This document shows positions 1 through 39,625 of a stretch of 41,540 nucleotides of DNA, piece after piece. Origin of the DNA: an uncultured Bacteroidia bacterium (lineage in GTDB: Bacteria > Bacteroidota > Bacteroidia > Bacteroidales > UBA932); contig CADCJX010000022.1 in assembly GCA_902801885.1 (NCBI GenBank), positions 6,632 through 48,171 of the forward strand, given 5' to 3'. A program made the translations under genes and the position numbers. Position 1 is the stretch's first letter. Each line of letters begins with the position of its first letter. The notes under the pieces are model-generated. The model was not told the DNA's origin, did not search any database, and saw only the letters and a list, made by a program, of their open reading frames with translations.

Positions 1-291
1 CAGTGGGTTCTCCTTGCAGGAATCATGATCGTCCAGGTCACCCCTGCACTGCTTTGGCTCGGAATAGCCCTGTTCGCCTTCTCAACCCTGTTCAGCTTCG
101 TCACCCTCCCGGTGGAGGTCAACGCAAGCCAGAGGGCTGTGAACTGGCTGGAAAGTGCAGGAATCACGAATTACGAAACAAGGCCGATGGCGATAGACGC
201 CCTCCGCTGGGCTGCCTACACCTACATCATCGCCGCCATTGGATCCCTGGCAACGCTTCTCTATTACATCGGAATCGCCGACCGGCGATAG
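1..291 (+). CDS. Zinc metallopeptidase (YugP family), C-terminal part
   Basis: The reading frame is open from the first base of the window, so the gene begins outside it; 96 C-terminal residues are visible. They hold two hydrophobic segments (roughly residues 3-30 and 70-90 of the visible part) around a soluble stretch with LPVEVNASQRAVNWLESAGI. That matches the conserved end of the membrane-bound neutral zinc metallopeptidase family (YugP, PF04298), where LPVE.nAS.RA..WL is typical. The HExxH active site would lie upstream and cannot be seen. The protein is expected in the inner membrane; its substrate is unknown. The TAG stop is the first triplet of an interspersed repeat, so the gene ends exactly at the element boundary. 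Confidence 0.8.
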   Translation, partial: QWVLLAGIMIVQVTPALLWLGIALFAFSTLFSFVTLPVEVNASQRAVNWLESAGITNYETRPMAIDALRWAAYTYIIAAIGSLATLLYYIGIADRR

Positions 292-369
292 ATCCTTCGT
301 CGCTTCGCTCCTCAGGAAAACAAAGTGCTCGGAGACAAGGCTGTCATTCTGAGCGCAGCGAAGAATCTA
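289..369. repeat. Pair of inverted interspersed elements forming a convergent intergenic region
   Basis: The left unit (289-317) reads TAGATCCTTCG ... CTCCTCAGGA and the right unit (343-369) reads GTCATTCTGAGCG ... CGAAGAATCTA, in opposite orientation. The outermost triplets are the stop codons of the two flanking convergent genes: TAG at 289-291 on the forward strand and TAG at 369-367 on the reverse strand. The units belong to the same family as the copies near 3741, 8128, 8189, 23481, 39524 and 39575. Confidence 0.85.
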
Positions 370-600
370 GAACAGGGTCGGATGGCTGTCGGAAAGCTGG
401 GAGAGGACAGTCTCCATGGTGGCTTCCCTGAATATGGCCGAACGGGCCTTTATTCCGAAACGGTCGCAGTACTCCTTGACTGCGGCCATTTCGCTATCAT
501 TGAGGTAGATAACCTGACGATGGCGGCGGCGGAGCGCCTCCCTGCTCTTCTGGAAAATCTCCGGATCGACAGCCGGAGCCTGTTTCTTCTTTCTGGCCAA
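367..600 (-). CDS. Small putative ribbon-helix-helix protein, 77 aa
   Basis: A basic N-terminal tail (MARKKK, then ALRRRHR around residues 22-28) is followed by a predicted strand QVIYLN and two helices (DSEMAAVKEYCDRFG and ARSAIFREATMETVLSQL). That order resembles the beta-alpha-alpha fold of ribbon-helix-helix DNA-binding proteins. I know similar short proteins as uncharacterised Bacteroidales hypotheticals; a regulatory role is inference. It is transcribed divergently from gmk through a shared palindromic promoter region. Its final residues (PTLF) and TAG stop run into the interspersed repeat, so the original C-terminus may have been altered. Confidence 0.7.
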   Translation of the reverse strand: MARKKKQAPAVDPEIFQKSREALRRRHRQVIYLNDSEMAAVKEYCDRFGIKARSAIFREATMETVLSQLSDSHPTLF

Positions 601-639
601 AACTTGTCTGATTTGAACGTACTCGTAGTCTGATTATTA

Positions 640-657
640 CAAAAATAGTTATTTTTG
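640..657. promoter_or_regulatory. Back-to-back -7 boxes of the divergent 77-aa gene and gmk
   Basis: CAAAAATA at 640-647 reads TATTTTTG on the reverse strand, and TATTTTTG at 650-657 reads forward; both fit the Bacteroidetes -7 consensus TAnnTTTG. Together they form a near-perfect palindrome (ACAAAAATA-gt-TATTTTTGT), so the two polymerases probably compete. Good -33 boxes were not found at the usual spacing. The predicted leaders are about 20 nt for gmk and about 35 nt for the small gene. Confidence 0.6.
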
Positions 658-681
658 TGTAAATAATAGCAGCAAAACCTA

Positions 682-1278
682 ATGGCTAAAAAAGTATTGA
701 TTTTTTCTGCACCTTCAGGGTCCGGAAAGAGCACCATTGTCAACCATATTCTTGGTCTGTACCCCGGTTCCATGGAGTTCTCGGTGTCCGCCACCTCAAG
801 GGCCCCGAGAGGAGAGGAACAGGACGGAAGGGAATACTACTTCCTGACAACTGAAGAGTTCCGCAAAATGATTGCAGAAGACAAGTTCGTGGAGTACGAA
901 GAAGTCTACGAGGGCCGTTTTTACGGCACTCTCAAGTCCGAATGTGAGAGGATCTGGGCTGCAGGCCATGTGATAATATTCGATGTGGACGTCAAGGGTG
1001 GCGTCAACCTGAAGAAATACTTCGGGGATGCGGCTCTTTCCATATTCATACAGGCCCCTTCCGTGGAAGTCCTAAGGCAGAGATTAGTCAACAGGGGTAC
1101 CGACTCCCCCGAGGCAATCGAGGAAAGGGTTGCCAAGGCTGAGGAAGAGATGACATATGCCCCTCAGTTTGACTACGTTCTCGTCAACGACGAACTCCAG
1201 ACTGCCTACGCTGAATCAGAAAAGGTCGTCGAGGACTTCCTTGACGACGGCAGGCTCAATTATTCGACTTTCATCTGA
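682..1278 (+). CDS. gmk: Guanylate kinase
   Basis: Phosphorylates GMP to GDP with ATP in the cytoplasm, feeding the guanine nucleotide and (p)ppGpp pools. The protein has 198 aa, normal for the family. The P-loop APSGSGKST sits at residues 10-18. It is followed by the GMP-binding part (TSRAPRGEEQDGREYYF, and F.EYEEVYEGRFYGT) and the FDVDVKGGVNLK strand that corresponds to the Walker B region. The ATG at 682 is 24 nt after a good -7 box. The stop TGA shares its last base with the ATG of nadD (TGATG), which implies translational coupling; gmk followed by nadD is a familiar order in Bacteroidales. Confidence 0.96.
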   Translation: MAKKVLIFSAPSGSGKSTIVNHILGLYPGSMEFSVSATSRAPRGEEQDGREYYFLTTEEFRKMIAEDKFVEYEEVYEGRFYGTLKSECERIWAAGHVIIFDVDVKGGVNLKKYFGDAALSIFIQAPSVEVLRQRLVNRGTDSPEAIEERVAKAEEEMTYAPQFDYVLVNDELQTAYAESEKVVEDFLDDGRLNYSTFI

Positions 1279-1835
1279 TGCGGATAGCAGTATATTCAGG
1301 ATCCTTCAATCCCCTCCACATCGGCCACAAGGCCATAATGGAGTACCTCACGAGGGAGGATGACTTCGACTGGGTCTATCTTGTCGTGTCGCCAAAGAAT
1401 CCTATAAAGGACTCGATCAGTGCAGACAGTGCAGACGAAAGGTATCTGGCAGCAGTGGAGGCCGTCAAGAGACATCCCAGGCTTCACGTCTGGGTTGATG
1501 ACATCGAACTCCTGTTGCCCCCTCCCCAGTACACGATAAGGACCCTGGAAGCCCTGAAGGAACGTGAGCCGGAGAACGAGTTCACCCTCGTAATAGGGGC
1601 CGACAACCTTGCAGGCTTCCGCCGCTGGAAGGAGTACAGCAAGATCCTTACTGAATACGGGGTCGTGGTCTACCCCAGGAAGGGTTTTGACCTCGAAGGT
1701 ATCCACGCTTCCCTGATGGAAGAATGTAAAGACTATAAGATAGAAATAATAGACGCTCCGATCGTGGACATCTCGTCTACCGAGATCCGAGAAGGCATCG
1801 CGGCCGGACGGGACATGGAAGAGTGGATGATGTAA
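1278..1835 (+). CDS. nadD: Nicotinate-nucleotide adenylyltransferase
   Basis: Transfers AMP from ATP to nicotinate mononucleotide, giving deamido-NAD in NAD biosynthesis. It has 185 aa, a usual length. The nucleotidyltransferase signature GSFNPLHIGH is at residues 8-17 (H14 and H17 of the HxGH-type motif), and the C-terminal ISSTEIR motif is at 165-171. The start overlaps the stop of gmk by one base, so the two are co-translated. The copper ATPase gene begins 16 bases after its end and is probably in the same transcript. Confidence 0.95.
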   Translation: MRIAVYSGSFNPLHIGHKAIMEYLTREDDFDWVYLVVSPKNPIKDSISADSADERYLAAVEAVKRHPRLHVWVDDIELLLPPPQYTIRTLEALKEREPENEFTLVIGADNLAGFRRWKEYSKILTEYGVVVYPRKGFDLEGIHASLMEECKDYKIEIIDAPIVDISSTEIREGIAAGRDMEEWMM

Positions 1836-1851
1836 TAAACTCAAAAAGACT

Positions 1852-3717
1852 ATGGCAAAAACAATCAGAAGGAATTTCCCCGTCCAGGGAATGGGCTGCG
1901 CAGCCTGTGTGGCAAGGGTTCAAGGTACAATAAAGAATCTTCAGGGAGTACAGGAATGCAATGTCTCCCTCGCATCCAACACCGCCCAGGTGGATTTCGA
2001 CCCCAAATCGATCACCGCAGCGGACATCAAGAAAGCCGTCCAGGATGCAGGCTATGACCTCATCGTAGTGGACGGTGACGACTCCGACGACGAAGCCGAC
2101 TCGGAAGCGGAACGGTTGCAGGAGGACTATCTCAGATCCCTTAAGAGGGACATGAGGCTTGCCGTGATCCTGGCCCTCCTCGTGATGCTGCTAGGAATGG
2201 GATTCGGCGATTTTCCCGGGAAGGGCTTCGTTCTCTGGGCTCTGGCTACTCCGGTCGTGTTCTGGTGCGGAAGAAGGTTCATCACCACCGCATGGAAACA
2301 GGCACGGCATGGAATAGCCAGCATGGACACCCTTGTGGCCCTTTCGATACTGATATCCTACCTTTTCAGCATATTCAACCTGTTATTTCCGTCGATCTGG
2401 ACATCCAGGGGCCTTGAGCCTCATCTGTATTTCGAATCCTCAACCATGATCGTGGCCTTCATCCTGATAGGCCGCGTGCTTGAGGAAAAAGCCAAGCACA
2501 GCACAGGTTCGGCGATCAGGGAACTTGCAGGACTTCAGCCCAAGAGTGTGGACCTGAAACCCGGTGACACCTATACCGTCAATCCGGGAGAGAGAATCCC
2601 GGCCGACGGTGAAGTCGTGAGCGGAGAATCCTGGGTGGATGAAAGCATGCTCACCGGAGAACCGGTTGCGGTCCTGAAGAATGCCGGGACTAAGGTCTAC
2701 ACAGGGACAATGAACCAGAGAGGGAGCTTCGTGATGAAGGCCGAAAAGGTCGGCAAGGACACCATGCTCTCCTCTATCATCAGGATGGTGCGCGACGCCC
2801 AGGGCAGCAAGGCCCGCATTCAGCAGACCGTGGACAAGGTAGCAGCCGTCTTCGTTCCCGTAATTATAGGAATATCGATTATTACCTTCCTGTGCTGGAC
2901 ATTCCTGGCCCCAACTGACGGAGTGACGATGGGACTCCTCGCAATGGTCACCGTACTGGTCATTGCCTGTCCCTGCTCACTCGGACTGGCGACTCCCACT
3001 GCCCTTACCGCAGGGATCGGGAACTGTGCCAGGAAAGGCATCCTGATAAAGGACGCAGACTCCCTCCAGGTTGCCGGCAAGATCGACTCTATTGTCCTGG
3101 ACAAGACAGGGACCATCACTAAGGAACTATCAGCCGGTATAGTCCCGACAGCCGATATGGAATTCGTGGACGAGGTGAAGGAGACTTCGGCAGAGGCCGT
3201 CTCCGAGCTCAAGGATCTGGGTCTCGACGTCTGGATGCTCTCCGGCGACAATGCTGAAAGGGCCGGAAAGGTGGCTGCCAAAGTCGGAATCGACAATGTG
3301 ATCTCCGGAGTCCTTCCGGACAGCAAACACGAGCACATCAAGGCACTGCAGGCCGAAGGCAGGAAGGTAGGTATGGCAGGAGACGGAATCAATGACAGCC
3401 CCGCCCTGGCTCTGGCAGACCTGAGCATTGCCATGGGCAACGGCACTGACGTAGCCATGAATGCATCCATGGTCACAATCGTCAATTCAGATCTTAAAAA
3501 GATTCCTCTGCTGATAAAAGTCTCCAGAAAGACTACCAGGATAATCAAGCAGAACCTTTTCTGGGCCTTCTTCTACAACATCCTGGCTGTTCCGGTCGCT
3601 GCCGGAATCCTGTATCCCGTCAACGGCTTCCTTCTCAACCCGATGGTAGCCGCCGCCTGCATGGCACTCAGCTCCGTCTGCGTCGTCACCAACTCCCTCA
3701 GATTGAAAAGAGGTTAG
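1852..3717 (+). CDS. copA: Copper-type P1B ATPase lacking the nucleotide-binding domain
   Basis: The family pumps Cu(I) out of the cytoplasm. Domains in order: an N-terminal heavy-metal-associated domain (GMGCAAC near residues 14-20), six to eight membrane helices with the transport motif CPC in IACPCSLGL, the actuator loop with LTGEP, the phosphorylation site D417 in DKTGTIT, and the hinge GDGIND with D511. D417 and D511 are only 94 residues apart; in known CopA proteins the interval is about 195. The missing block is the ATP-binding N domain, including the SEHP motif. The frame is intact and the P domain resumes cleanly (SAGIVPTADMEFVDEVKE). The protein is 621 aa, against about 720-750 usually. 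It should bind Cu but is unlikely to be a normal ATP-driven pump. Confidence 0.85.
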   Translation: MAKTIRRNFPVQGMGCAACVARVQGTIKNLQGVQECNVSLASNTAQVDFDPKSITAADIKKAVQDAGYDLIVVDGDDSDDEADSEAERLQEDYLRSLKRDMRLAVILALLVMLLGMGFGDFPGKGFVLWALATPVVFWCGRRFITTAWKQARHGIASMDTLVALSILISYLFSIFNLLFPSIWTSRGLEPHLYFESSTMIVAFILIGRVLEEKAKHSTGSAIRELAGLQPKSVDLKPGDTYTVNPGERIPADGEVVSGESWVDESMLTGEPVAVLKNAGTKVYTGTMNQRGSFVMKAEKVGKDTMLSSIIRMVRDAQGSKARIQQTVDKVAAVFVPVIIGISIITFLCWTFLAPTDGVTMGLLAMVTVLVIACPCSLGLATPTALTAGIGNCARKGILIKDADSLQVAGKIDSIVLDKTGTITKELSAGIVPTADMEFVDEVKETSAEAVSELKDLGLDVWMLSGDNAERAGKVAAKVGIDNVISGVLPDSKHEHIKALQAEGRKVGMAGDGINDSPALALADLSIAMGNGTDVAMNASMVTIVNSDLKKIPLLIKVSRKTTRIIKQNLFWAFFYNILAVPVAAGILYPVNGFLLNPMVAAACMALSSVCVVTNSLRLKRG

Positions 3718-3740
3718 TGTCATTCAGAGCTAGTGAAGCT

Positions 3741-3767
3741 GTCATTCTGAGCGAAGCGAAGAATCTA
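3741..3767. repeat. Interspersed element between copA and murA
   Basis: A complete 27-bp copy beginning GTCATTCTGAG and ending CGAAGAATCTA. Its last three bases (3765-3767) are the complement of the murA TAG stop. A degraded relative (TGTCATTCAGAG) lies at 3719-3730, directly after the copA stop. The whole convergent intergenic region is therefore made of this repeat material. Confidence 0.85.
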
Positions 3768-5081
3768 CCCCTTTCTGATAATCCTCGCCCCGAGGTTGTT
3801 GAGGCGGTTCTCAATGTCCTCGTAACCACGGTCGATCTGCTCGATGTTGCCGATCTCACTGGTTCCCTTGGCGGACATAGCAGCAAGGAGCAGGGCGATA
3901 CCGGCCCTGATATCCGGCGACAGCATCCTGCCGCTCCTGAGCTGGAACTTGTGGTCATGTCCGATCACCACAGCCCTGTGGGGGTCGCAAAGGATAATCT
4001 GGGCGCCCATGTCGATCAGGCGGTCGACGAAGAAGAGCCTGCTTTCAAACATCTTCTGGTGGATCAGGACGCTTCCGCGGCACTGGGTCGCCACGACCAG
4101 GATAACGCTCAGGAGGTCAGGCGTTAGGCCGGGCCATGGAGCGTCGGCTATGGTCATTATCGAACCGTCCAGGAAGGACTCGATGATATAGCTTTCCTGC
4201 TCAGGTACGAATATGTCGTCTCCCCTCTGCTCGATTCTTATTCCAAGGCGCCGGAAACTTTCGGGAATAATGCCCAGGTTATCATAGGAAGTGTCCTTGA
4301 TGGTTATGCCGCTCTGGCACATCGCGGCCATGCCTATGAAACTGCCGACCTCGATCATGTCCGGCAGGATCTTGTGAGTTGCCCCGTGAAGCGAACTTAC
4401 TCCGGTGACAGTGAGGAGATTGGATCCTATTCCTTCGATCTTGGCTCCCATTGCCGTGAGGAGTCGGCAAAGCTGCTGGATGTAGGGTTCGCAGGCGGCA
4501 TTGTAAATAACGGTCTTCCCCTCTGCCAGGCAAGAAGCCAGAAGTATGTTCGCCGTACCTGTAACTGAAGCTTCATCAAGAAGCATGTATTTTCCGGTAA
4601 GATGCTTTCCCTGTGGGAGCTGGAGCCTGTAGGCCCGTCGATCGGAATCATAGGTAAGGTCCGCACCAAGCGCCATGAGTCCGGAAATATGGGTATCCAC
4701 CCTGCGGCGGCCGATCTTGTCACCTCCAGGTTTTGGGAACCACACATGCCCAAGCCGTGCCAGCAGTGGGCCAGCTACCATGACGGATCCACGCAGCGAT
4801 GAGCACATCCTCACGAATTCGGAGCTTTCAATGAAGTCGGTATCGAGCTTTTCTGCCTTGAATGAATATTCCCCTTTAGCAATACGGTTCACCCTGACTC
4901 CCATCATCTCCAGAAGGGAAATCAGATTCTTGATGTCCAGAATCTCCGGAACGTTGGTTATTACCACTTCTTCTGTGGTTAGGAGAACTGCGCTGATCAC
5001 TTCAAGCGCTTCGTTCTTGGCGCCCTGGGGGACTATGCTTCCGCTTAGGCGATGACCGCCTTCGATAATGAACGAACTCAT
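3765..5081 (-). CDS. murA: UDP-N-acetylglucosamine 1-carboxyvinyltransferase
   Basis: First committed step of peptidoglycan synthesis: transfers enolpyruvate from PEP to UDP-GlcNAc in the cytoplasm. At 438 aa it is close to the usual 420-440. K22-N23 (AKNEAL) matches the PEP-binding lysine, and the catalytic loop reads FPKPGGDKIGRRRVDTH. The residue equivalent to E. coli Cys115 is Asp121, the form known to prevent covalent inactivation by fosfomycin. The WPGLTPD motif late in the protein supplies the catalytic aspartate. It follows murB by 12 bp on the same strand, so the first two steps specific to UDP-MurNAc synthesis are co-expressed. The TAG stop is supplied by the adjoining repeat. Confidence 0.95.
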   Translation of the reverse strand: MSSFIIEGGHRLSGSIVPQGAKNEALEVISAVLLTTEEVVITNVPEILDIKNLISLLEMMGVRVNRIAKGEYSFKAEKLDTDFIESSEFVRMCSSLRGSVMVAGPLLARLGHVWFPKPGGDKIGRRRVDTHISGLMALGADLTYDSDRRAYRLQLPQGKHLTGKYMLLDEASVTGTANILLASCLAEGKTVIYNAACEPYIQQLCRLLTAMGAKIEGIGSNLLTVTGVSSLHGATHKILPDMIEVGSFIGMAAMCQSGITIKDTSYDNLGIIPESFRRLGIRIEQRGDDIFVPEQESYIIESFLDGSIMTIADAPWPGLTPDLLSVILVVATQCRGSVLIHQKMFESRLFFVDRLIDMGAQIILCDPHRAVVIGHDHKFQLRSGRMLSPDIRAGIALLLAAMSAKGTSEIGNIEQIDRGYEDIENRLNNLGARIIRKG

Positions 5082-5093
5082 TGGTTATCTGTT

Positions 5094-6125: not shown

Positions 6126-6130
6126 ATCAT

Positions 6131-6161
6131 CAAAGGTACATAAAAATAGCCGTCCTTCAAA
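6131..6161 (-). promoter_or_regulatory. murB promoter
   Basis: The reverse-strand -7 box TACCTTTG (6138-6131) is preceded, after a 19-bp spacer, by a -33 TTTG (6161-6158). This is a textbook Bacteroidetes promoter. The box ends 5 nt before the murB ATG, predicting a leaderless transcript. The -33 element sits in the loop region of the upstream dnaK terminator. Confidence 0.75.
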
Positions 6162-6173: not shown

Positions 6174-6192
6174 CTAAATAAATCAAAGGATC

Positions 6193-8082
6193 TTACTGCT
6201 CATCAGGTCCCTGATCCTCGGGGCCGTTCTGGGGGCCCTGGGGCCCAGCCTGAGGGCCGCCGTTACCATAAGGGTTCTGGCCAGCGCCCTGGCCTGCCTG
6301 GTACATCTTCTCGAATGCCTTGCTGAGGGCCTCGGAGTACCTGTCGATGTCGGCGAGGTTCTGGTTCTTGATAGCTTCCTTCAGGGAAGCGACATTGGAC
6401 TCGACCTCCGTCTTGACGTCAGCGGGAACCTTGTCACCATTGTCCTTCAGGAATTTCTCAGCCTGGAAGCAGAGGGAGTCGGCGTTGTTGATCTTGTCAA
6501 CCCTTTCCTTCGCCTCCTTGTCGGCAGCCTCGTTGGCCTTTGCCTCGTCACGCATCCTCTGGATCTCGGAGTCGGACAGGCCTGAAGAAGCCTCGATCCT
6601 GATCTTCTGCTCCTTGCCGGTAGCCTTGTCTTTAGCGGACACGTTGAGGATACCGTTGGCATCGATGTCGAAGGTAACCTCGATCTGAGGTATTCCTCTC
6701 GGAGCGGGTGCGATACCGTCCAGGTGGAAGAGTCCGAGTTCCTTGTTGTCCTTCGCCATCGGGCGCTCGCCCTGGAGGACATGGATCTCGACTGAAGGCT
6801 GGTTGTCAGCAGCTGTCGAGAAGACCTGGCTCTTATGCGTAGGAATGGTAGTGTTAGCATCGATGAGCTTAGTCATGACACCACCGAGGGTCTCGATACC
6901 GAGAGACAGAGGGGTGACATCCAGGAGGAGGACATCCTTAACATCGCCAGCGAGCACACCACCCTGGATGGAGGCGCCGATTGCGACGACCTCGTCGGGA
7001 TTGACACTCTTGTTGGGCTCCTTGCCGAAGAACTCCTTCACGAGTTCCTGGACCTTGGGGATACGGGTGGATCCGCCGACGAGGAGGACCTCGTCAATGT
7101 CGGAAGCCTGGAGGCCGGCGTCACGAAGGGCGATGCGGCAAGGCTCGATTGACCTCTGGAAGAGGTTGTCGCAGATCTGCTCGAACTTAGCCCTGGTGAG
7201 GGTCTTCACAAGGTGCTTGGGGATGCCGTCGACAGGCATGATGTAAGGAAGGTTGATCTCAGTGGAGGTCTGGCTGGAAAGCTCGATCTTTGCCTTCTCT
7301 GCAGCTTCCTTAAGTCTCTGGAGAGCCATCGGGTCCTTCTTCAGGTCGATACCGCCGTTCTCTGCTGCGAACTCGGCAGCAAGCCAGTTGATGATCTCCT
7401 GGTCGAAGTCGTCACCGCCAAGATGGGTGTCACCATTGGTGGACTTCACCTCGAATACTCCACCACCAAGCTCGAGGATGGAAATATCGAAGGTACCGCC
7501 ACCAAGGTCGTAGACAGCGACCTTCATATCCTTGTTCTTCTTGTCAAGACCGTAAGCAAGGGCAGCTGCGGTAGGCTCGTTGATAATCCTCTTGACATCG
7601 AGTCCGGCGATCTTACCGGCCTCCTTGGTTGCCTGGCGCTGGGAGTCAGAGAAGTATGCAGGCACTGTAATGACAGCCTCGGTGACATCCTGGCGGAGGT
7701 AGTCCTCGGCGGTCTTCTTCATCTTCTGAAGGACCATTGCGGAAATCTCCTGAGGGGAATAGAGCTTGCCGTTGATGTCCACGCGCGGGGTGTTGTTCTC
7801 GCCACGGACGACCTTGTAAGGGACCCTGCTTACTTCCTTGGTCACCTGGTCGTAAGTCTCACCCATGAACCTCTTGATAGAGAAGACAGTGTTCTGGGGA
7901 TTGGTGATGGCCTGACGCTTTGCAGGGTTTCCGATCTTCCTCTCTCCGCCGTCGGTGAATGCCACGACAGAAGGGGTAGTCCTCTCACCCTCGTTGTTGA
8001 TTATGACGGTAGGCTGGTTGCCTTCCATGACCGAAACGCACGAATTGGTGGTTCCAAGGTCGATTCCGATGATTTTTCCCAT
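6193..8082 (-). CDS. dnaK: Chaperone DnaK (Hsp70)
   Basis: ATP-dependent cytoplasmic chaperone working with DnaJ and GrpE, neither of which is in this window. It has 629 aa. The ATPase domain begins with [12 protein letters not shown] and carries [34 protein letters not shown] and [14 protein letters not shown]. The conserved linker region reads [17 protein letters not shown] substrate-binding domain and a helical lid follow, with a Gly/Pro/Gln-rich tail ending in GPDEQ. A Shine-Dalgarno AGGAGA sits 8 nt before the ATG. It is flanked upstream by a repeat-filled 200-bp gap and downstream by a strong terminator, so it is probably monocistronic. I could not identify a heat-shock operator. Confidence 0.98.
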
Positions 8083-8115: not shown

Positions 8116-8235
8116 CCGGTTGGAAAAGATTCTTCGCTTCGCTCAGAATGACAGCCTTTATTCTGTCGATAATGACAGTTTTTATTCTGTCATCCTGAGG
8201 AGGCGGTCAGCCTCCGAAGGATCTATTTCAACCGG
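8116..8235. repeat. Compound palindromic element upstream of dnaK
   Basis: This is the longest gap between genes (8083-8283). Outer inverted arms CCGGTTGGAAAAGATTC and GGATCTATTTCAACCGG bracket the block. Inside are one unit with the GAATCTTCGC/CTCAGAATGAC pattern (8128-8152), two tandem 20-24 bp copies of AATGACAGyyTTTATTCTGTC, and a second-class unit GTCATCCTGAG ... CGAAGGATCTA (8189-8225) with an internal hairpin GGAGGC-ggtca-GCCTCC. The rest of the gap (8083-8115, 8236-8283) holds the dnaK ribosome site and nothing else I recognise. Confidence 0.8.
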
Positions 8236-8283: not shown

Positions 8284-8739
8284 TCACTCGTGGGAGGCGA
8301 AACGCTGACGGGCCAGTGCTTCATATTCAGTCCCCGGACGGCCGTAATTGGCATACGGATGGATGGATATTCCTCCGCGCGGCGTGAAAAGACCGAGCAC
8401 TTCTATGTACTTGGGATCCATCAACTTGATAAGGTCGTTCATGATCATGTTGACGCAATCCTCATGGAACCCGCCATGGTTGCGGAAACTGAAAAGATAC
8501 AGTTTCAGGCTCTTGCTTTCAACCATCCTGATGTCAGGGATGTAGCTGATGCGGATCTCCGCAAAGTCAGGCTGGCCGGTTATGGGACAGAGGGTAGTGA
8601 ACTCAGGGCAGTTGAACTTCACCCAATAATCCCTTCCGGGATGCATGTTCTCGAATGTCTCAAGTACTTCGGGAGCATAATCCATCTTGTATCTAGTCTC
8701 ATGGCCCAGAGCTTCCAGGCCTTCTTTCTTCCTGTCCAT
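8284..8739 (-). CDS. queF: NADPH-dependent 7-cyano-7-deazaguanine reductase
   Basis: Reduces preQ0 to preQ1 on the way to queuosine in tRNA wobble positions. It has 151 aa, matching the short, homohexameric unimodular QueF class. [12 protein letters not shown] contains the nucleophilic cysteine and the downstream acidic residue, and [21 protein letters not shown] is the NADPH-binding QueF motif. The ATG at 8739 was preferred over upstream in-frame starts, which would add 42 residues that merely overlap the 3' end of yhhQ. The 7-bp spacing from yhhQ indicates one transcript. Confidence 0.94.
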
Positions 8740-8746
8740 AAATGAA

Positions 8747-9427
8747 TCAATAATCGAAAATCTTGAAAGGGTTGTAGTGGATGTCGCGATCGTAGGCATC
8801 CTCTTCTTCAGTCTCCTTGAGTTTGCGTACAACCATCGTCGTGACAGGCAGGATGATGATCTCATAGAGCACCTTGAACGACACCTGGAAGAGCATCATC
8901 CAAGCCAGGTCCTTTACCGGGGTTCCCCAGAAAGCTATGGGCATGAATATGAGAGAGTCCAGACACTCTCCGGCGACAGAGGACACTATTGCCCTGGCGG
9001 AGAAGCCCCTGCCTTCCTGGGCTACCTTCATCTTGCTCAATACGTAAGCGTTGAAGGTCGAGCCGGCAAGGAAAGCCAGCAGCGAAGCCAGAAGGATTCG
9101 AGGTGCCATCTTGAACACGAAGTCGAAATGCTCCCCGCCAGTCCAGAAAGGAGCTGCCGGAAGCAGGACTGCTATCTGGGCGGTAAGAGCCACGAACAGG
9201 TTCATCGCGAACGCCGTCCAGATGACAAGGCGTGCCTTCCTGTATCCCCAGACCTCGGTGAAACAATCATTGAGGATGTAGGAGACGGGGAAGATGAGCA
9301 CAGCACAAGGCAACGTGATCTTGCCGATGGCAAAGACCTTGGAGGCGAAAAGGTTTGAAGTGATAAGACAGACCGTGAAAAGTACGGCCATCAGCACGAA
9401 GGCTGAAGAAAAACTGTTCTTTTGCAT
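8747..9427 (-). CDS. yhhQ: Queuosine precursor transporter (YhhQ/QPTR family)
   Basis: An integral membrane protein of 226 aa with about six hydrophobic helices. It carries family features such as N..ASKVF near the N-terminus, [21 protein letters not shown] and the late [17 protein letters not shown]. The family imports preQ0 or preQ1. Lying 7 bp upstream of queF, it probably supplies preQ0 for reduction; no other queuosine genes are in the window. The C-terminus carries an acidic tail ([12 protein letters not shown]). No riboswitch-like structure is visible in the 42-bp gap before it. Confidence 0.9.
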
Positions 9428-21988: not shown

Positions 21989-23476
21989 ATGGCAAATTTG
22001 AAATCATTGGCCAAGGACACAGCGATCTACGGCCTAAGCAGCATAATCGGAAGGTTCCTCAACTACCTCCTGGTCCCCCTGTACACCTACGTCATCAATG
22101 CGTCCAGCGGCGGGTACGGAGTTGTGACCAACCTTTATGCCTACACTGCCCTGCTCCTCGTGATCCTGACATATGGGATGGAGACCACCTTCTTCCGTTA
22201 TTCCAACAAGGAAGGAGAGAATCCCGACAAGGTGTATTCAACCATCCTGACTTCCGTCCTCACGACTTCAGCCCTGTTCGTCGCCCTTGTGGTTGCCTTC
22301 CTGAAGCCGATTTCTTCAGCCATGGGCTATCCCGACCATCCGGACTACATCTGGACGATGGCCTTGACCGTCGCGATAGATGCTTTCCAGTGTATCCCTT
22401 ATGCCTATCTCCGCTACAAGAAACGTCCTCTGAAGTTCGCGGCCTTGAAGCTTGGGTTCATATTCCTGAACATCCTTCTGAATCTCACCTATTTCGTCTT
22501 CCTTCCGAAACTCGGTCTCAATCCTTTCGGAATCTACGACGGCGGCATCCAGGTAGGCTGGGTCTTCTACATCAACCTCTTCTGCACCGCCTTCATGACT
22601 ATCTTCTTCGCCGGCGAGCTGAAGGGATTCAAGCACGGCTTCGACTGGGGTCTCATGAAGAGGATGCTTTCCTACAGCTGGCCGATCCTGGTCCTCGGAA
22701 TCGCCGGAATCCTCAACCAGACTGCCTCGCAGATCATTTTCCCCTACGTCTACAAGGGAGCTGACGGAGCGGCACAGCTCGGCATCTACGGGGCCTGCAT
22801 CAAGATTGCCATGATCATGGCCATGATCACCCAGGCCTTCCGCTATGCCTACGAGCCTTTCGTGTTCGGCAGTTCAGCCGAAAAGGACAGCAAGGAAACT
22901 TATGCCAAGGCTATGAAGTATTTCATAATCTTCACCCTGCTTGCCTTCCTCTGCGTCATCGGTTTCATGGACATACTGAAGTACATCATCGGAGCCGACT
23001 ACCGCGTCGGCCTCAAGGTCGTCCCGATCGTGATGGCTGCCGAGATCCTTATGGGAGTCTATTTCAACCTCTCTTTCTGGTACAAACTTACTGACCAGAC
23101 GCTTTGGGGTGCACTGTTCTCAGGAATAGGTTGCCTTGTGCTGTTCGCAATCAATATCATCTTCATTCCGAAGATCGGTTACATGGCCTGCGCCTGGGCC
23201 GGTGTAGGTGGCTATGGCACAGCCACCCTGCTTTCTTATTTCGTAGGACAAAAGAAGTACAGGATCGACTATCCGCTCGGCGACATATCTCTCTACACAG
23301 TCGTAGCCGCAATCCTCTTTGCAGGAATGGTCTTCGCCAACGATCATCTCGGCACCTGGACAGCCCTCGCAGTCAACGCGGCCCTTATCCTGTTGTTCTG
23401 CGCAGTCATAGTCTGGCGCGACCTTCCACTCTCTTCGCTACCCGTCGTTGGCAAATATTTCCGAAAACATGCCTGA
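21989..23476 (+). CDS. Oligosaccharide flippase (polysaccharide biosynthesis protein, MOP superfamily)
   Basis: 495 aa with about fourteen hydrophobic helices. The N-terminus LAKDTAIYGLSSIIGRFLNYLLVPLYTYV is typical of Wzx-like and related polysaccharide exporters, which flip lipid-linked sugars across the inner membrane. MFRYAYEPFVF-like and YFNLSFWYKLTDQT segments are usual for the Bacteroidetes branch. There is no glycosyltransferase cluster next to it, so the glycan is unknown; a general cell-envelope function is likely. Its stop overlaps the first ATG of the MATE gene. Confidence 0.9.
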   Translation: MANLKSLAKDTAIYGLSSIIGRFLNYLLVPLYTYVINASSGGYGVVTNLYAYTALLLVILTYGMETTFFRYSNKEGENPDKVYSTILTSVLTTSALFVALVVAFLKPISSAMGYPDHPDYIWTMALTVAIDAFQCIPYAYLRYKKRPLKFAALKLGFIFLNILLNLTYFVFLPKLGLNPFGIYDGGIQVGWVFYINLFCTAFMTIFFAGELKGFKHGFDWGLMKRMLSYSWPILVLGIAGILNQTASQIIFPYVYKGADGAAQLGIYGACIKIAMIMAMITQAFRYAYEPFVFGSSAEKDSKETYAKAMKYFIIFTLLAFLCVIGFMDILKYIIGADYRVGLKVVPIVMAAEILMGVYFNLSFWYKLTDQTLWGALFSGIGCLVLFAINIIFIPKIGYMACAWAGVGGYGTATLLSYFVGQKKYRIDYPLGDISLYTVVAAILFAGMVFANDHLGTWTALAVNAALILLFCAVIVWRDLPLSSLPVVGKYFRKHA

Positions 23477-24992
23477 CCCTGTCATTCTGAGCAAAGCGAA
23501 GAATCTCAGCAAAGCGAAGAATCTTAACAAGGAAATCCTGCGTCTCGCCCTTCCGAGCATCCTGGCGAACCTTACCGTCCCGCTTGTCGGAATGGTGGAC
23601 ATCGCTATTGCGGGCCATCTGGACACTTCCGCAGCTGCCTTGATAGGCGGTATATCGGTGGGTTCACTGATGTTCGACATGCTGTACTGGAACTTCGGTT
23701 TCCTGAGAGCGGGTACAGGAGGGCTGACAGCACAGGCTTTCGGGCGTGAGGACTGGAACGGATGCGCCTCCTATCTCAGGAGGGGGCTTGGGCTCGCACT
23801 TTTGCTGTCCCTGTTACTGCTCCTCATCCAATGGCCCTTCCAGAAACTCATATTCGTCTTCGTCCACTGTTCTGAAGAAGTCCGGACCCTGGCACTGAAA
23901 TACTTCTACATCAGGATCTGGGCTGCTCCGGCCACCTTGTGCCTGATGACGTTCAGGGGCTGGTTCATCGGGATGCAGGACAGTTTCAGCTCGATGCTTA
24001 CGGACGTGACGGTCAACGGCGTCAACATCATCGCCAGCATTTTGCTGGCGCTTGGAATCAAAGGTACGGCTTTCCATGGACTAGGATTCGTCGGTATCGC
24101 ATGGGGTACCGTCGCCGCCCAGTACGCCGGCCTCCTCATCGCCGCAACTATACTCTTCCTGAAGTACCGCTGGGGTTTAAGGCACGCGGTTGCTCCCGGT
24201 AGCACCTTGGCCAGCTCGACCACTGCCACCCTCGGCACGTTAAGAGGGGGGACCGGAGCTGAGCACAGCGAAGCGATCGGTGGGGCCGAGCGAAGCGAGG
24301 CGGTCGAGCGGTCAAGGGTGCTGCCGGGAACCGACAAAAAGAATACGACTGTGCGGGAGTTCTTTACGGTGAACAGGGACCTGTTCATCAGGTCTATTTG
24401 CCTGATGGCAGTCTACCTCGGCTTCACCGCCATCTCCGCCCGCTTCGGCGACACCCCCCTCGCCATGTGCTCCATCATGATGAAACTCATGATGGTCTTC
24501 TCCTACTTCACCGACGGCTTCGCCTTCGCCGGAGAAGCCCTGACAGGACGCTTCTTCGGCCGTAAGGACAAGCCGGCCGTCTCCACCACAGTCAAATGGA
24601 CCTTCGTCTGGAGCATGGGAATCGGTTTGCTCTTCATAGGGATATATTCCATTGCAGGAATACCTATGTTCAGGATTATGACATCGGACGTAAAAGTTAT
24701 CGAAGCCTCCCGGGCCTTCATTCCATGGCTCGCACTTATTCCCCTCCTCGGCTGCCCTGCCTTTACCTGGGACGGTATCTACATCGGTGCCACAGCCACC
24801 AAGGTAATGCGGGACTCCAACGTCGGCTGTCTGATAGCCTTCTTTGCCGTCTGGTTCCTCGGTTGGTTATTTCTTAAACCGGCAGGCGACGGAAAGGTTC
24901 ATCTCCTTTTCGCCGCCTACTACGCTCATCTGCTCTTCAGGTCACTGTATCAGACAATCCAGTACCGTACAGCGATACTGGATAAGATCTAA
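23469..24992 (+). CDS. MATE-family efflux transporter invaded by two repeats
   Basis: 507 aa; a cation-coupled multidrug or metabolite exporter with the usual opening NKEILRLALPSILANLTVPLVGMVDIAIAGHL. The first ATG in frame is 23469, overlapping the flippase stop by 8 bases. Residues 5-19 (VILSKAKNLSKAKNL) are encoded by an interspersed repeat that appears to have replaced the native start. A second insertion encodes about residues 243-287 (including AEHSEAIGGAERSEAVERS), in the cytoplasmic linker between the two six-helix halves. The frame stays open throughout. Near the C-terminus FLKPAGDGKVHLLFAA is encoded by DNA duplicated 839 bp downstream. Still probably functional, because both repeats fall in soluble parts. 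Confidence 0.88.
   Translation: MPDPVILSKAKNLSKAKNLNKEILRLALPSILANLTVPLVGMVDIAIAGHLDTSAAALIGGISVGSLMFDMLYWNFGFLRAGTGGLTAQAFGREDWNGCASYLRRGLGLALLLSLLLLLIQWPFQKLIFVFVHCSEEVRTLALKYFYIRIWAAPATLCLMTFRGWFIGMQDSFSSMLTDVTVNGVNIIASILLALGIKGTAFHGLGFVGIAWGTVAAQYAGLLIAATILFLKYRWGLRHAVAPGSTLASSTTATLGTLRGGTGAEHSEAIGGAERSEAVERSRVLPGTDKKNTTVREFFTVNRDLFIRSICLMAVYLGFTAISARFGDTPLAMCSIMMKLMMVFSYFTDGFAFAGEALTGRFFGRKDKPAVSTTVKWTFVWSMGIGLLFIGIYSIAGIPMFRIMTSDVKVIEASRAFIPWLALIPLLGCPAFTWDGIYIGATATKVMRDSNVGCLIAFFAVWFLGWLFLKPAGDGKVHLLFAAYYAHLLFRSLYQTIQYRTAILDKI
23481..23524. repeat. Interspersed element at the MATE start
   Basis: GTCATTCTGAGC ... GCGAAGAATCT (23481-23506) is followed by a second partial copy of its right half (23507-23524). 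Unlike the intergenic copies, it is translated and ends ATCTTAA instead of ATCTA. Confidence 0.8.
24195..24328. repeat. In-frame palindromic insertion inside the MATE gene
   Basis: A 134-bp block with imperfect 27-bp inverted ends (24195-24221 against 24302-24328; about 24 of 28 aligned positions match with two small gaps). Its centre carries two GAGC/AGCGAAGCG cores like those of the interspersed family. It replaces or extends the linker between the transporter halves without a stop codon. Confidence 0.75.
24871..24917. repeat. 47-bp direct repeat, copy 1 (within MATE)
   Basis: Identical over 47 bases to 25710-25756. A shorter match (TTCCTCGG) at 24855-24862 aligns at the same 839-bp offset, so the homology really starts there with a diverged 8-bp stretch between. 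Confidence 0.9.
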
Positions 24993-33863: not shown

Positions 33864-34189
33864 TTCTGGGAATATACTTTAGTGATTGAAAGGATCAGGT
33901 GGCGGGTGTTGATCCCACGTGGGCAGACCATGGAGCATTTTCCACAGAACTGGCACGACTCAAGCATCTGGAGAGCCTTCTCGGGATTGGCATTCTTGAT
34001 GGCCTCTATGGCCTCGCGAAGGCTTGTGGGTACGAACTTGCCGGCTGTGCAGACAGCCGTGCAGCTGCCACAGGCCATGCAGATCCGGACATCCGGCTCC
34101 ATAGCGGCCAATTCCTCATACTTCTCCTTGTCGAAGAGGTCGAGGTTGATCCTTGAACTTGGCACAAGGCCGAAACCGAAATCTACCAT
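33860..34189 (-). CDS. hdrC: HdrC-like 2x[4Fe-4S] subunit, short form
   Basis: 109 aa. It has two ferredoxin motifs: C37-x2-C40-x2-C43-x3-C47 (CMACGSCTAVCTAG, with Thr where Pro usually follows the last Cys) and C79-x2-C82-x2-C85-x3-CP (C89). No membrane helix. The family relays electrons between a CCG-domain subunit and the flavoprotein. Its start overlaps hdrA by 7 bases and its stop overlaps the fusion gene by 4, so stoichiometric, coupled translation is likely. Confidence 0.9.
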   Translation of the reverse strand: MVDFGFGLVPSSRINLDLFDKEKYEELAAMEPDVRICMACGSCTAVCTAGKFVPTSLREAIEAIKNANPEKALQMLESCQFCGKCSMVCPRGINTRHLILSITKVYSQK

Positions 34190-35238: not shown

Positions 35239-35244
35239 ATTCTT

Positions 35245-36309: not shown

Positions 36310-36313
36310 AACC

Positions 36314-37009
36314 TTAGTGATTAAGATGTTTGGGAGAACTGTCGGTGTAGATCTTTGCTTCGAACTCCTCCTTTGTCATGCCCCACTCGGCAGCCTTCCT
36401 TTCGCCAGCCTTTCTTACGGCTTCCATCCGGTCTGATGCTCCTGTGATGTCGAAGATTGCCTTGAGCTGGTCCAAGTCTTCCTGGGGGATTCTCCTCATC
36501 GCTCCTGGACCGGAACCGTCAAGGTTACCGCCCAGACGCTCGAACACGTCGTCAAGATGCTTTTCCTCCCACTCCCAGATTCTACCTGACTCAGGATGCC
36601 CGGCATAGTCGAAACGGCGGGGATAGACACAATAACCATAGTCCAGGATGTTGGAGCAGAGGTCCTTGGTCAATAGATACTGCTGTCTTCCCTTCTCGGA
36701 ATCAATGAAATAGCCCAGTTCAATCGAAAGATTGCGGAGGGACATCACGATCAGTCCTGCAGCATTCTTCCTCGGGCACCTCGTCACACAACTCATACAT
36801 TCTCCGCAGTACCAGATCGTGTCGCTGCGAAGGAGTTTCTCGATCTCTTCGTCGTCCTTGCTCTGTACGATGTCCACAATCCTCCTAGGATCGTAACGGT
36901 AAAATTCTGCAGCAGGGCAGATTGCGGTGCATGTACCGCAGTTGATGCAGGCATTAAGGCCCTCCTTCAGGCGGTAGTCCTGCATCAGAAGGTCGTATAG
37001 TTTACCCAT
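36314..37009 (-). CDS. hdrC: HdrC-like 2x[4Fe-4S] subunit, long form
   Basis: 231 aa. Ferredoxin motifs: C21-INCGTCTAICP (C21, C24, C27, C31) and C68-GECMSCVTRCP (C68, C71, C74, C78). A C-terminal extension of about 150 residues, without membrane helices, contains YGYCVYPRRFDYAGHPESGRIWEWEEKH and may dock HdrB. It is the first enzyme gene after marR (1 bp) and precedes hdrB by 4 bp. Confidence 0.9.
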   Translation of the reverse strand: MGKLYDLLMQDYRLKEGLNACINCGTCTAICPAAEFYRYDPRRIVDIVQSKDDEEIEKLLRSDTIWYCGECMSCVTRCPRKNAAGLIVMSLRNLSIELGYFIDSEKGRQQYLLTKDLCSNILDYGYCVYPRRFDYAGHPESGRIWEWEEKHLDDVFERLGGNLDGSGPGAMRRIPQEDLDQLKAIFDITGASDRMEAVRKAGERKAAEWGMTKEEFEAKIYTDSSPKHLNH

Positions 37010-37010
37010 C

Positions 37011-37487
37011 TCAATTCTTTTTTGTAGGATACTTTTCTGCGAGTGCTTCCAGGTCGGATGAGGGATTCATATTCCTTTCCATGGCTGCAAGCACCCTGAC
37101 AAACAACTTCAGGTCATCCCTGGATATTTCCCCAATGATCTTGTAAACCGACTCATAGGCAATCGTTTCCACATCATCGCGGATCTTCATCGAATAGGGA
37201 GTTACCTTGATAAGGTTCTGCCTCCTGTCTTCCGGATTGGAAACCCTCTTCACAAGTTTGCGACTCTCGAGCCCGTCAATCAGTTTGACGATCGAATTCT
37301 TGTCCCTCATAGTGATGTCTGCAATCTGCTGCTGGGTCAGGACGCCTTCGTCCCAAAGGGTGTCCATGACCAGGAACTGTTCTGGAGAAAGCTTGAAACC
37401 TCCCTTTCGGAAAGAGTCCGACATGAGTTGTTTCATGCTGTTATGCACTATGTTAAGGAAAAGGAAAAGTTGTTTTTCTAGTACCAT
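37011..37487 (-). CDS. MarR-family repressor of the hdr operon
   Basis: 158 aa, winged-helix MarR protein. The recognition region LTQQQIADITMRDKNSIVKLIDGLESRKLVKRVSNPEDRRQNLIKVT has the conserved wing DRR. No cysteine pair suggests a thiol sensor, so the ligand is unknown. It sits one base upstream of the hdr genes in the same direction, and two inverted half-sites flank its promoter. It is therefore most likely an autorepressor that sets expression of the whole operon. Confidence 0.9.
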   Translation of the reverse strand: MVLEKQLFLFLNIVHNSMKQLMSDSFRKGGFKLSPEQFLVMDTLWDEGVLTQQQIADITMRDKNSIVKLIDGLESRKLVKRVSNPEDRRQNLIKVTPYSMKIRDDVETIAYESVYKIIGEISRDDLKLFVRVLAAMERNMNPSSDLEALAEKYPTKKN

Positions 37488-37493
37488 GTTTTA

Positions 37494-37550
37494 TTGTAAG
37501 ACCTTTTACTATTTCTTGCAAAGTTAATAGAAAGTGTCTTACAATGCAAA
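37494..37550 (-). promoter_or_regulatory. marR-hdr promoter with flanking inverted repeats
   Basis: -33 TTTGC (37550-37546), a 19-bp spacer, and -7 TAACTTTG (37526-37519) on the reverse strand: a full consensus promoter. Perfect 9-bp inverted copies TTGTAAGAC (37494-37502) and GTCTTACAA (37536-37544) lie on either side of the -7 box. The first is just upstream of the start codon and the second sits between the two promoter boxes. They are good candidate MarR operator half-sites. Confidence 0.7.
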
Positions 37551-38504
37551 TCAGGCGCGGAATTTCTTGTCGTCTTCCAACATCCCCAGATAGGAATTAT
37601 AGCGCTCCGCCGAAATCCTTCCCTCCTCGACTGCTTGCTTCACGGCACATCCCGGTTCATGGGTGTGGGTACATGGGGTGAAACGGCAATTCTTGAGTTC
37701 ACGAAGCATTTCAGGGAAATAGAGTGCGATCTCATCCTTCTTGAGATCGACTAGACCGAACCCCCTCAAGCCCGGAGAATCAATGAGGAATCCTCCGGAA
37801 CATACCGGATACATCTCATAGAGCGAAGTCGTGTGCTTACCTTGAAGATGCGCCAATGAGATGTCTCCGACCTTTGGATCCAGTGAAGGGTCCAATGCCT
37901 TGATAATCGACGACTTCCCCACTCCGGATTCCCCCGTAAAAAGACAGATCCGCCCTTCTTCCGGAGTCCCGACTGCAGTACGGAGTTCCTCTATTCCTTC
38001 TCCCGTAAGAGCGGAGGTCTCGATTATCCTGTAACCGGCGCTCTCGTAGATCCGGTGGAAGTTAGAAAGCTCATCCGGGAACTCTTTTCTGAATATGTCG
38101 ACCTTATTCAGGACAATGGTGGCAGGAATGCCATAGACTTCACAGGTCACCAGGAGCCTGTCCAGGAACGGAAGCTTTATCTCCGGGAAAAAGAGAGTCA
38201 CCACCAGGAAAGCCTGGTCCAGGTTTGCCGCTATGACATGGGACTGACGGGAAAGGTTTGTAGAACGCCTGATGAGGTAGTTCTTCCGGTCGGACACGGA
38301 CCTGATGGTCGCAGGATGTGTCATCGACGGAGTGTCGGAATATTCGTACTCGACGACATCCCCGACGGCGACCGGATTGGTGGAATCGCTTCCGGAAAGC
38401 CTGACCTTACCTTTGAGTACAGCCGGGAAAGGCTCCCATTCCGGAAGTCTGGAAAGCAGGAAATGGCTTCCTGCGTTTTTCACGACTGTCGCCTTGCCGT
38501 TCAT
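37551..38504 (-). CDS. rsgA: Ribosome small-subunit GTPase RsgA
   Basis: Circularly permuted GTPase assisting late 30S maturation. It has 317 aa from the ATG at 38504. An OB-fold N-terminus is followed by the permuted G motifs in the order NKVD, GESGVGKSS, DSPGLRGFGL. The zinc knuckle CRFTPCTHTHEPGC then follows, with its Cys/Cys/His/Cys ligands. A TTG at 38513 could add three residues, but the -7 box covers it. It is divergent from the polyprenyl synthase gene. Confidence 0.96.
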   Translation of the reverse strand: MNGKATVVKNAGSHFLLSRLPEWEPFPAVLKGKVRLSGSDSTNPVAVGDVVEYEYSDTPSMTHPATIRSVSDRKNYLIRRSTNLSRQSHVIAANLDQAFLVVTLFFPEIKLPFLDRLLVTCEVYGIPATIVLNKVDIFRKEFPDELSNFHRIYESAGYRIIETSALTGEGIEELRTAVGTPEEGRICLFTGESGVGKSSIIKALDPSLDPKVGDISLAHLQGKHTTSLYEMYPVCSGGFLIDSPGLRGFGLVDLKKDEIALYFPEMLRELKNCRFTPCTHTHEPGCAVKQAVEEGRISAERYNSYLGMLEDDKKFRA

Positions 38505-38510
38505 AGCAGG

Positions 38511-38518
38511 CAAATTTA
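38511..38518 (-). promoter_or_regulatory. rsgA -7 box
   Basis: TAAATTTG on the reverse strand, ending 6 nt before the ATG. No -33 element at standard spacing. Confidence 0.5.
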
Positions 38519-38530
38519 AGTAATTTTGCC

Positions 38531-38538
38531 TAACTTTG
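38531..38538 (+). promoter_or_regulatory. Polyprenyl synthase -7 box
   Basis: TAACTTTG on the forward strand, ending 4 nt before the ATG: the closest forward-strand case in the window. It is identical to the marR -7 box. Confidence 0.55.
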
Positions 38539-38542
38539 CGAC

Positions 38543-39526
38543 ATGATTAGACATGAAACCATCGATGCTGCCGTAAAGGAGCTTTTCAACGGAATACAGT
38601 TCACCAGCGAGCCTTCAGGGCTCTACGACCCACTCAGGTACATGATCGCCATAGGCGGAAAGAGGCTGCGGCCGAAGCTCTGCCTGACCACATATTCATT
38701 GTACAAGGATGAAATCGGCCCGGATATCCTTGAACCTGCTGCAGGTTTGGAGGTATTCCACAGTTTCACGCTGATCCATGACGACATCATGGACCGTTCT
38801 CCCCTGCGCCGTGGTGTCGACACCGTCTGGAAGAAATGGAATGCCGACACGGCCATCCTTTCCGGTGACGTAATGTGCATTGACAGCTATTCCCGGATAG
38901 CGAAGGCACCGAAGGAATCCGTCAGCGAGGTCCTGTCGCTTTTCTCAAAGACCGCCGCCCAGGTCTGCGAGGGCCAGCAGTTCGACATGGAGTTCGAGTC
39001 CAGGGATGATGTCCGGATGGATGAATATATGAACATGATCGGCCTGAAGACCGGTGTCCTGATCGCATGCGCCGCAAAGATGGGTGCCCTTATTGCCGGT
39101 GCCCCCGCGAACGAATGCGACAAGCTTTATGAATATGGTTACAACCTCGGACTTGCATTCCAAGTTGCGGACGACTTCCTGGATGTGTTCGGGGATGAGA
39201 AAGTGTTTGGAAAACCCATCGGAGGGGATATCGTCAACTCGAAGAAGAGTTGGCTTACCATCAGGGCTTTCGAGAAGGCTGAGGGTGGTGCAAAAGCGGA
39301 CCTGGAGAAAGCCATGGTCATGCCTGTAGAAACTGAGGAACAGAAGAATGACAAGATTTCGATGGTCCGTGGGCTCTATCAGGAACTGGGTGTCGGGAAG
39401 GATGCCCAGAAGACCATCCTTGACCTGAATTTCAAGGCACTCATGGCAGCTTCGGAAGTCTGCAAGGGCGTCCGTTTCGAAGTCCTCCGCCGCTTCGCCG
39501 ACAACCTCATCGGCCGCACCAAATAG
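38543..39526 (+). CDS. Short-chain trans-polyprenyl diphosphate synthase
   Basis: 327 aa. It condenses isopentenyl diphosphate onto allylic primers. The first Asp-rich motif is D80-DIMD84 in LIHDDIMDRSPLRRG and the second is D210-DFLD214 in QVADDFLDVFGD. GGKRLRP near residue 38 binds diphosphate. An aromatic residue (F75) five places before the first motif, with no insertion inside it, suggests a C15 or C20 product, though that is a weak rule. The final codon is followed by TAG, the first triplet of an interspersed element. Confidence 0.92.
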   Translation: MIRHETIDAAVKELFNGIQFTSEPSGLYDPLRYMIAIGGKRLRPKLCLTTYSLYKDEIGPDILEPAAGLEVFHSFTLIHDDIMDRSPLRRGVDTVWKKWNADTAILSGDVMCIDSYSRIAKAPKESVSEVLSLFSKTAAQVCEGQQFDMEFESRDDVRMDEYMNMIGLKTGVLIACAAKMGALIAGAPANECDKLYEYGYNLGLAFQVADDFLDVFGDEKVFGKPIGGDIVNSKKSWLTIRAFEKAEGGAKADLEKAMVMPVETEEQKNDKISMVRGLYQELGVGKDAQKTILDLNFKALMAASEVCKGVRFEVLRRFADNLIGRTK

Positions 39527-39625
39527 ATCCTTCGCAGGCCTGCGGCCTTCTCAGGATGACACCGATTCCCAACTGTCATTCTGAGCGAAGCGAAGAATCT
39601 ATTATTCTATTAAGCGAAGAATCTA
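39524..39625. repeat. Convergent intergenic block built of three interspersed units
   Basis: The left unit (39524-39560) is TAGATCCTTCG ... CTCAGGATGAC with the internal palindrome CGCAGGCCTGCG. The right unit (39575-39601) is GTCATTCTGAG ... CGAAGAATCTA, and a truncated third unit (39612-39625) ends AAGAATCTA. The outer TAG triplets are the stops of the polyprenyl synthase and of the GH13 gene. Nothing else is in the gap. Confidence 0.85.

Follow-up and report, generated by a model that had tools for sequence, protein, structure and literature searches.

The stretch of DNA analysed here, 41,540 nucleotides of contig CADCJX010000022.1 from an uncultured Bacteroidia bacterium (the window), carries a 27-base hairpin repeat that caps genes at their stop codons; the repeat is a real feature, and its coincidence with gene stops lies far above chance. 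In five genes of the window the TAG stop falls exactly on a repeat boundary. The first (289–291, plus strand) ends a Zn_peptidase_2 gene that is cut by the window start, with T289 belonging to the gene and A290–G291 to the repeat. It is followed by a dimer, two hairpins in opposite orientation with their AG ends outside (290–368; left hairpin from 290, with a degenerate head near 321, and right hairpin at 342–368), which also caps a convergent minus-strand gene (367–600, stop 367–369) whose 77-residue product has no Pfam match. A murA-like gene with an EPSP_synthase match (3765–5081, minus strand) takes its stop at 3765–3767 from the edge of a single 27-bp plus-strand repeat (3740–3766), and a partial head copy adjoining that repeat (3718–3739) itself abuts the TAG stop of an open reading frame (ORF) at 1852–3717. 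The last two stops belong to a polyprenyl synthetase gene (39524–39526, plus strand) and a cyclomaltodextrinase-type GH13 gene (39623–41461, minus strand, stop 39623–39625). These convergent genes are separated by another AG-outside dimer with a branched fold (39525–39600) and by a half copy, consisting of the tail arm only, that continues the same unit (39613–39624, plus strand). The five boundary stops, and the motifs GTCAT(T/C)CTGAG and CGAAG(A/G)ATCTA that bound the units, had been noticed in a sequence-only reading of the window and are found where that reading placed them. Its count of convergent gene pairs is likewise reproduced from the ORF list: three of five are separated by the element (291/367, 3717/3765 and 39526/39623) and two are not (13925/13953 and 24992/25000).

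The repeat has the consensus TGTC-ATYCT-GA-GCGAAGC-GA-AGRAT-CT and forms a hairpin of 27 bp (more in variants of the stem) in which the ATYCT and AGRAT arms are followed by tandem G.A and an inner GC-GAA-GC (5 bp, G.A and 2 bp, with a 3-nt loop). It reads AG-hairpin-GACA on one strand and TGTC-hairpin-CT on the other. A strict pattern, TCATYCTGA-N3..30-GAAGRATCT, finds 74 copies in the genome to which the window belongs (G000), and a reversed-pattern control finds 0. When the ends are relaxed, AG precedes the core in 74 of 78 copies and GACA comes after it in 73 of 78; bases farther out are not conserved to a similar degree. Within the window, a search for the core CATTCTGAGCGNAGCGAAGAATCT that tolerates up to 3 mismatches gives 5 matches against a mean of 0.00 in shuffled sequence; taken by themselves, with 2 mismatches tolerated, the two short boundary motifs are no commoner there than chance predicts. 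The hairpin is further supported by covariation, which was counted in 56 27-mers from G000 and in 161 from genomes carrying taxonomic names, the latter, like all named-genome results below, among the matches listed. Pair 7–23, for which the Y at 7 and the R at 23 were left free independently in the pattern, is TA in 32, CG in 22 and CA in 2 of the G000 copies and TA in 87, CG in 72 and CA in 2 of the named-genome copies. Pair 12–18 is GC in 40, AT in 15 and CC in 1 in G000, and GC in 154 and AT in 7 in the named genomes, where the scan that fetched the loci fixed this pair as GC in one copy per match. The TGTC tag is present in 53/56 of the G000 27-mers and in 157/161 of those from named genomes, which were found with a pattern containing TGTC. 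The ATYCT...AGRAT stem start recurs in the copies studied, AT having been part of the search patterns, and the short, unpaired CT tail is kept in 55/56 of the G000 27-mers. Folded singly, hairpins are weak (z –0.5 to 0.1). The sequence-only reading had also described paired units in opposite orientation; such pairs exist and fold together, most clearly the 39525–39600 dimer, which does so on both strands (–32 and –35 kcal/mol, z about –4; RNA –32.2 kcal/mol, z –4.1), with the 290–368 dimer less convincing at z –1.8. No RNA family in Rfam matches the window above its gathering score.

To ask how often the repeat meets a stop, we located stops with a simple codon-usage gene caller and counted genes running toward the AG end of a hairpin with their stop within –150 to +2 of it, in G000 and in congeners G024, G027 and G028. 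Most, though not all, copies were fetched for G027 and for genome G059 (91 and 33 hairpins analysed, respectively), and the first 30 matches each for G028 and G024 (27 and 28 hairpins analysed). An exact fusion, in which T from the gene is followed directly by AG from the repeat (T|AG), is present at 7/20 repeat-facing stops in G000 and at 15/23 in G027. In our null model, units fell at random on positions that leave the protein unchanged, within gaps of the same regions that carry no element; T was given weights of 1 to 4, and overlapping gene pairs were excluded. The model expects 1.6–3.4% in this register for G000 and 2.2–5.1% for G027. Measured against 5.1%, the binomial tails are 3.9e-5 (G000) and 1.4e-14 (G027); against 20%, chosen only as a harsh bound, they are 0.087 and 3.1e-6. 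Three further G000 fusions lie outside this pipeline, namely locus L071 at a contig end, window position 289 with its degenerate head and window position 39623 with its half copy. Pooling G000, G027, G028 and G024 (220 copies) gives 25 fused stops among 55 that face a repeat, and the next two registers hold 1 and 0. These figures provide part of the genome-wide frame tabulation against a control that the sequence-only reading had proposed, and they bear out its suspicion that chance placement is unlikely, the excess being in frame and seen again in a congener. Its claim that the element supplies the TAG must be divided. The base before AG is T in only 24/74 G000 copies, which is near-random, and therefore the T of the stop is the gene's and only the AG is the repeat's. 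That chance alone is at work, T preceding AG one time in four and falling in frame one time in three, agrees with this near-random base; it predicts variably truncated proteins, and is extremely improbable in view of the large excess and the natural protein ends described next.

The proteins that end on the repeat have natural C-termini. When 21 fused genes were compared with their closest element-free congener orthologs, the C-terminal length was the same in 16 and within 1–2 residues in 5. In the window, the Zn_peptidase_2 gene matches its Pfam profile to position 217/218 and two orthologs stop at the same codon, a 98.6%-identity ortholog of the 77-residue protein stops at the same codon, for the murA-like gene element-free relatives use TGA or TAA at that very codon, and the Cyc-maltodext_C domain of the GH13 protein is complete to residue 611/612. 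Gene truncation by insertion was therefore rejected, as protein ends match those of element-free orthologs and the metallopeptidase and GH13 C-terminal profiles both run to their ends. The best empty site is that of the 289/369 unit: in the relative G033, which lacks the repeat at this point, the stops of two convergent genes overlap in CTAG, and the flanks seen in the window can be put together again at T^A with no base gained or lost. Elsewhere the gaps differ too much between relatives for such a comparison. Among dimers with a stop at one end only, the far flank begins with AA, AG or GA, the remainder expected of a split stop, in 5/12, against 5/44 of dimers with no stop; these are counts without a significance test, and the pattern is suggestive, not conclusive. 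Five dimers (10 strand-wise entries) carry a fused stop at both ends. The stop codons of orthologs were also considered as a test of the ancestral stop and dropped for want of power (P(TAG|TAG)=0.32); because stop codons turn over so fast among these species, orthologs cannot reveal which stop was hit.

Paired hairpins in G000 and G027 are oriented differently from those in named loci outside Bacteroidia. Taking hairpins within 120 nt as neighbours, G000 and G027 together have 37 pairs with AG outside and 1 with TGTC outside. A scan of named genomes with the exact 27-bp pattern (one Y and one R choice) found at least 119 stretches, which carry 21 phylum labels, including one archaeal label; their titles are mostly those of metagenome-assembled genomes, and some of the labels may be binning errors. 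Outside Bacteroidia, the named loci show 38 pairs with TGTC outside and 9 with AG outside. Fusion follows a similar division: 3/65 facing stops in named genomes are fused, all of them in Bacteroidia records (3/9), compared with 0/56 outside Bacteroidia. Copies that build stops are confined, among the loci examined, to the window's genus and three further Bacteroidia records. Polarity and fusion do not match perfectly, as set out below. The contrast in polarity and register offers a natural handle on how repetitive extragenic palindromes (REPs) without a transposase travel and why gene ends are where they collect.

We favour, with a confidence only a little above even, an account in which AG-ended units resembling REPINs (REP doublets forming hairpins) were inserted at the stop codons of tightly packed genes and regenerated the stop. 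The repeat would be a TGTC-tagged REP, paired in G000 and G027 with its TGTC ends facing inward, which would give a REPIN-like unit of roughly 60–170 bp with AG...CT at both outer ends. Such a unit would enter just after the T of a stop, where T and AG would restore a stop, now TAG, at that codon irrespective of which stop stood there before, and at convergent genes with overlapping CTAG stops its two ends would rebuild both. Since the stop would be rebuilt at the same codon, the fusion would be protein-neutral even with almost no intergenic room, and units that are protein-neutral would be kept. Units would thus have arrived by insertion, and the register would reflect a local T preference combined with short gaps and with neutrality. 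The earlier suggestion that copies ending genes neatly are the ones retained finds a place here, as AG rebuilds a stop after the T of any stop and retention probably contributes; a uniform neutral model, in contrast, misfits the registers. The companion suggestion, that the element inserts at TAG/ATCTA targets, did not hold in that simple form: only the AG is the repeat's own, and G000 copies away from stops show no preference for T.

Several observations weigh against stop regeneration by inserted units. Plain neutral insertion predicts equal use of the registers behind the first base (T), the second base and the third base of the stop, where 25, 1 and 0 are observed. Seven pooled stops have the unit one base beyond the stop and are unexplained, although at least two of these are questionable (L022 is no genuine copy, and the plus-strand ORF at L305 may be spurious). 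Fusions also occur on single hairpins (3/7 in G000 and 2/15 in G027), and the absence of a T preference away from stops in G000 stands beside a strong one in G028 (T in 76% of 29). Polarity and fusion part company in three places: G024, although a congener, has 0/7 stops fused and mixed polarity (2 AG-outside, 3 TGTC-outside); the named Bacteroidia loci, with 3/9 fused, have 0 AG-outside pairs and 1 TGTC-outside pair; and G028 has three fused stops with 2 AG-outside pairs and 1 TGTC-outside pair. Just one clean empty site backs insertion between T and A. The intragenic copies lie in variable stretches, and the 22 of 62 listed units that were queried have flanks that align and no clean junction. 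Finally, the split-stop remainder is absent from 7/12 one-end-stop dimers, and the rapid turnover of stop codons noted above obscures the history of each site.

The base outside AG varies by genome, being mostly T in G028, A in G024 and G in G059, which points to genome-specific insertion or end preferences. At the G028 loci L436–L465, AT precedes AG in about three quarters of 29 hairpins. Three called gene starts in G028 lie at distance 0 from a tail, a possible mirror image of stop fusion.

A different assignment of the AG is possible, if unlikely: it may belong to the target and not to the unit, with an enzyme (for example one making a Y1/HUH-type nick beside the hairpin) acting on TAG stops and the hairpin landing directly after. 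The AG beside the hairpin is nearly invariant (74/78), as a required target would be, one dominant register is predicted, and at loci L279 and L288 the joined flanks read as plausible stop-start gaps if the AG is kept. Nevertheless, the 289/369 site would then need extra bases relative to its relatives, and the expected stops of TAA or TGA followed by G are represented by 1 case. We regard as similarly improbable a deletion ratchet, in which units insert anywhere in a gap and deletion-biased drift trims the spacer until T|AG, the tightest arrangement that keeps the protein, is reached. The gaps are indeed tiny (medians of 1 to 27 nt by gene-pair type), unit tails touch called start codons as well (6 at distance 0), and in genome G011 a unit lies 26 nt past the stop of a gene whose G027 counterpart is fused. 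However, intermediate registers should fill under such trimming, and 1 and 0 were observed there against 25 in the fused register.

A third possibility, which we hold to be about as doubtful, is that, in the genus and in some Bacteroidales relatives, a process which senses gene ends delivers reversed-polarity REP dimers exactly one base into the stop codon. Sensing could operate, for example, via terminator-like palindromes or via ribosome-dependent cleavage at stops. If this were true, sets of genes would carry stops built by the element.

Placement by selection, with the units serving as bidirectional terminators or stabilisers of 3' ends, seems to us quite unlikely. One dimer does fold strongly on both strands, copies lie in three of the window's five convergent pairs, and two dimers (L081 and L386) sit in the loop of terminator-like palindromes. 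On the other hand, the hairpins have no T-run by eye, such a function needs no single-base register, single hairpins are weak, and genomes of one genus have anywhere from 0 to 107 strict copies.

A search for a driver of the stop-fused units covered the Y1_Tnp genes of G000; no driver was found among these, and other transposase families were not searched. There are two such genes, resembling REP-associated tyrosine transposases (RAYTs) and bearing an NNPV motif, which encode 287 and 315 residues (L031 1426–2289 and L032 1399–2346, respectively). No full repeat copy is present in their fetched flanks of about 1.5 kb. A RAYT was rejected as the driver, given these flanks without the repeat and the presence of Y1_Tnp genes in congeners without strict copies. 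The L031 gene is flanked by repeats reading AAGCAATCAGACGGTCC, which are unrelated to the hairpin repeat. We also rejected, as not supported in G000, a TA or TAG target, as for a miniature inverted-repeat transposable element with TA duplication: T..A flanks are seen at 3/10 G000 dimers (and at 9/27 G027 dimers), and T precedes AG in 24/74 G000 copies.

The closest described systems are the tagged REPs of Di Nocera, De Gregorio and Rocco (2013; PMC3733652). The CGTC-tagged REPs described there, for which TGTC is a stated tag variant, share with our repeat a position near the 3' ends of ORFs between convergent or co-directional genes, intragenic copies and the occurrence of dimers inside palindromes. 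A stem starting with AT (AT being part of the search patterns used here), a short unpaired tail and the lack of a dedicated transposase (judged here from the Y1_Tnp genes) may be further points in common. The tail is CT here and mostly CCA there. The stem here has 5 bp, tandem G.A and 2 bp with a 3-nt loop (long-stem variants exist), whereas CGTC REPs have 8–9 bp and a loop of 4–5. Dimers carry the tag inside here and predominantly outside in CGTC REPs (the HH arrangement, a term defined for GTAG), and the dimer kind seen here is rare for CGTC by that usage. The same paper reports that ORFs next to GTAG REPs often take their TAG stops from the REP termini; it describes stop provision for GTAG elements, not for CGTC ones, while here it is a TGTC-tagged repeat that does so. 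GTAG REPs and REPINs with a RAYT are alike in being short palindromes in inverted pairs whose termini often yield TAG stops; they differ in that there is no GTAG tag here, just a conserved AG, and in that the two Y1_Tnp genes of G000 have no copy of the repeat in their fetched flanks. The Rickettsia palindromic elements RPE-4 and RPE-6, filed under CGTC repeats in that text, are alike by description in inserting in frame into proteins, and differ in that gene-end fusion is the prominent pattern here. Because loop and dimer polarity differ, the repeat, which by its sequence resembles CGTC/TGTC-tagged REPs, is called a variant and not a proven member. The class is known, and for GTAG REPs stop fusion is known in its outlines; the new questions concern the register, the contrast in polarity and the mechanism. 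Literature searches on the repeat sequence itself returned nothing relevant, those on the GCGAAGC motif nothing relevant as judged by title among the matches listed, and those joining Bacteroidetes, stop codons and palindromic interspersed repeats nothing; a search combining REP, Bacteroidetes, transposase and stop codon gave PMC3733652 as its sole match, and among the matches listed for repeats that provide stops, that paper and one on REPINs were judged relevant.

Additional copies show other settings of the repeat. The L386 and L081 dimers, with AG outside, lie in palindrome loops reading GAGGCTGACTAAAT...ATTTAGTCAGTCTC, which suggests insertion at hairpin tips. Head or tail arms also occur in short tandem arrays, such as repeated GCTCAGGATGACAGGGG at L302, L304 and several G005 and G028 matches, and look as if single hairpin arms amplify on their own. 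Two copies in the window are exceptions to the gene-ending role. An AG-outside dimer at 8127–8224 (DNA fold z –4.5), between the minus-strand ORFs 6193–8082 and 8284–8865, makes no stop. The other, at 23480–23524 on the plus strand, lies inside a MatE-family gene with its ATG at 23469, where the tail arm is duplicated by 18 bp with the frame kept and the repeat contributes VILSKAKNLSKAKNL to the protein in the gene's reading frame. The repeat-derived residues fall near the N-terminus, and 23469–23540 reads MPDPVILSKAKNLSKAKNLNKE..., including VILSKAKNL. For annotation, this means that the repeat can be read as protein and can lengthen predicted proteins.

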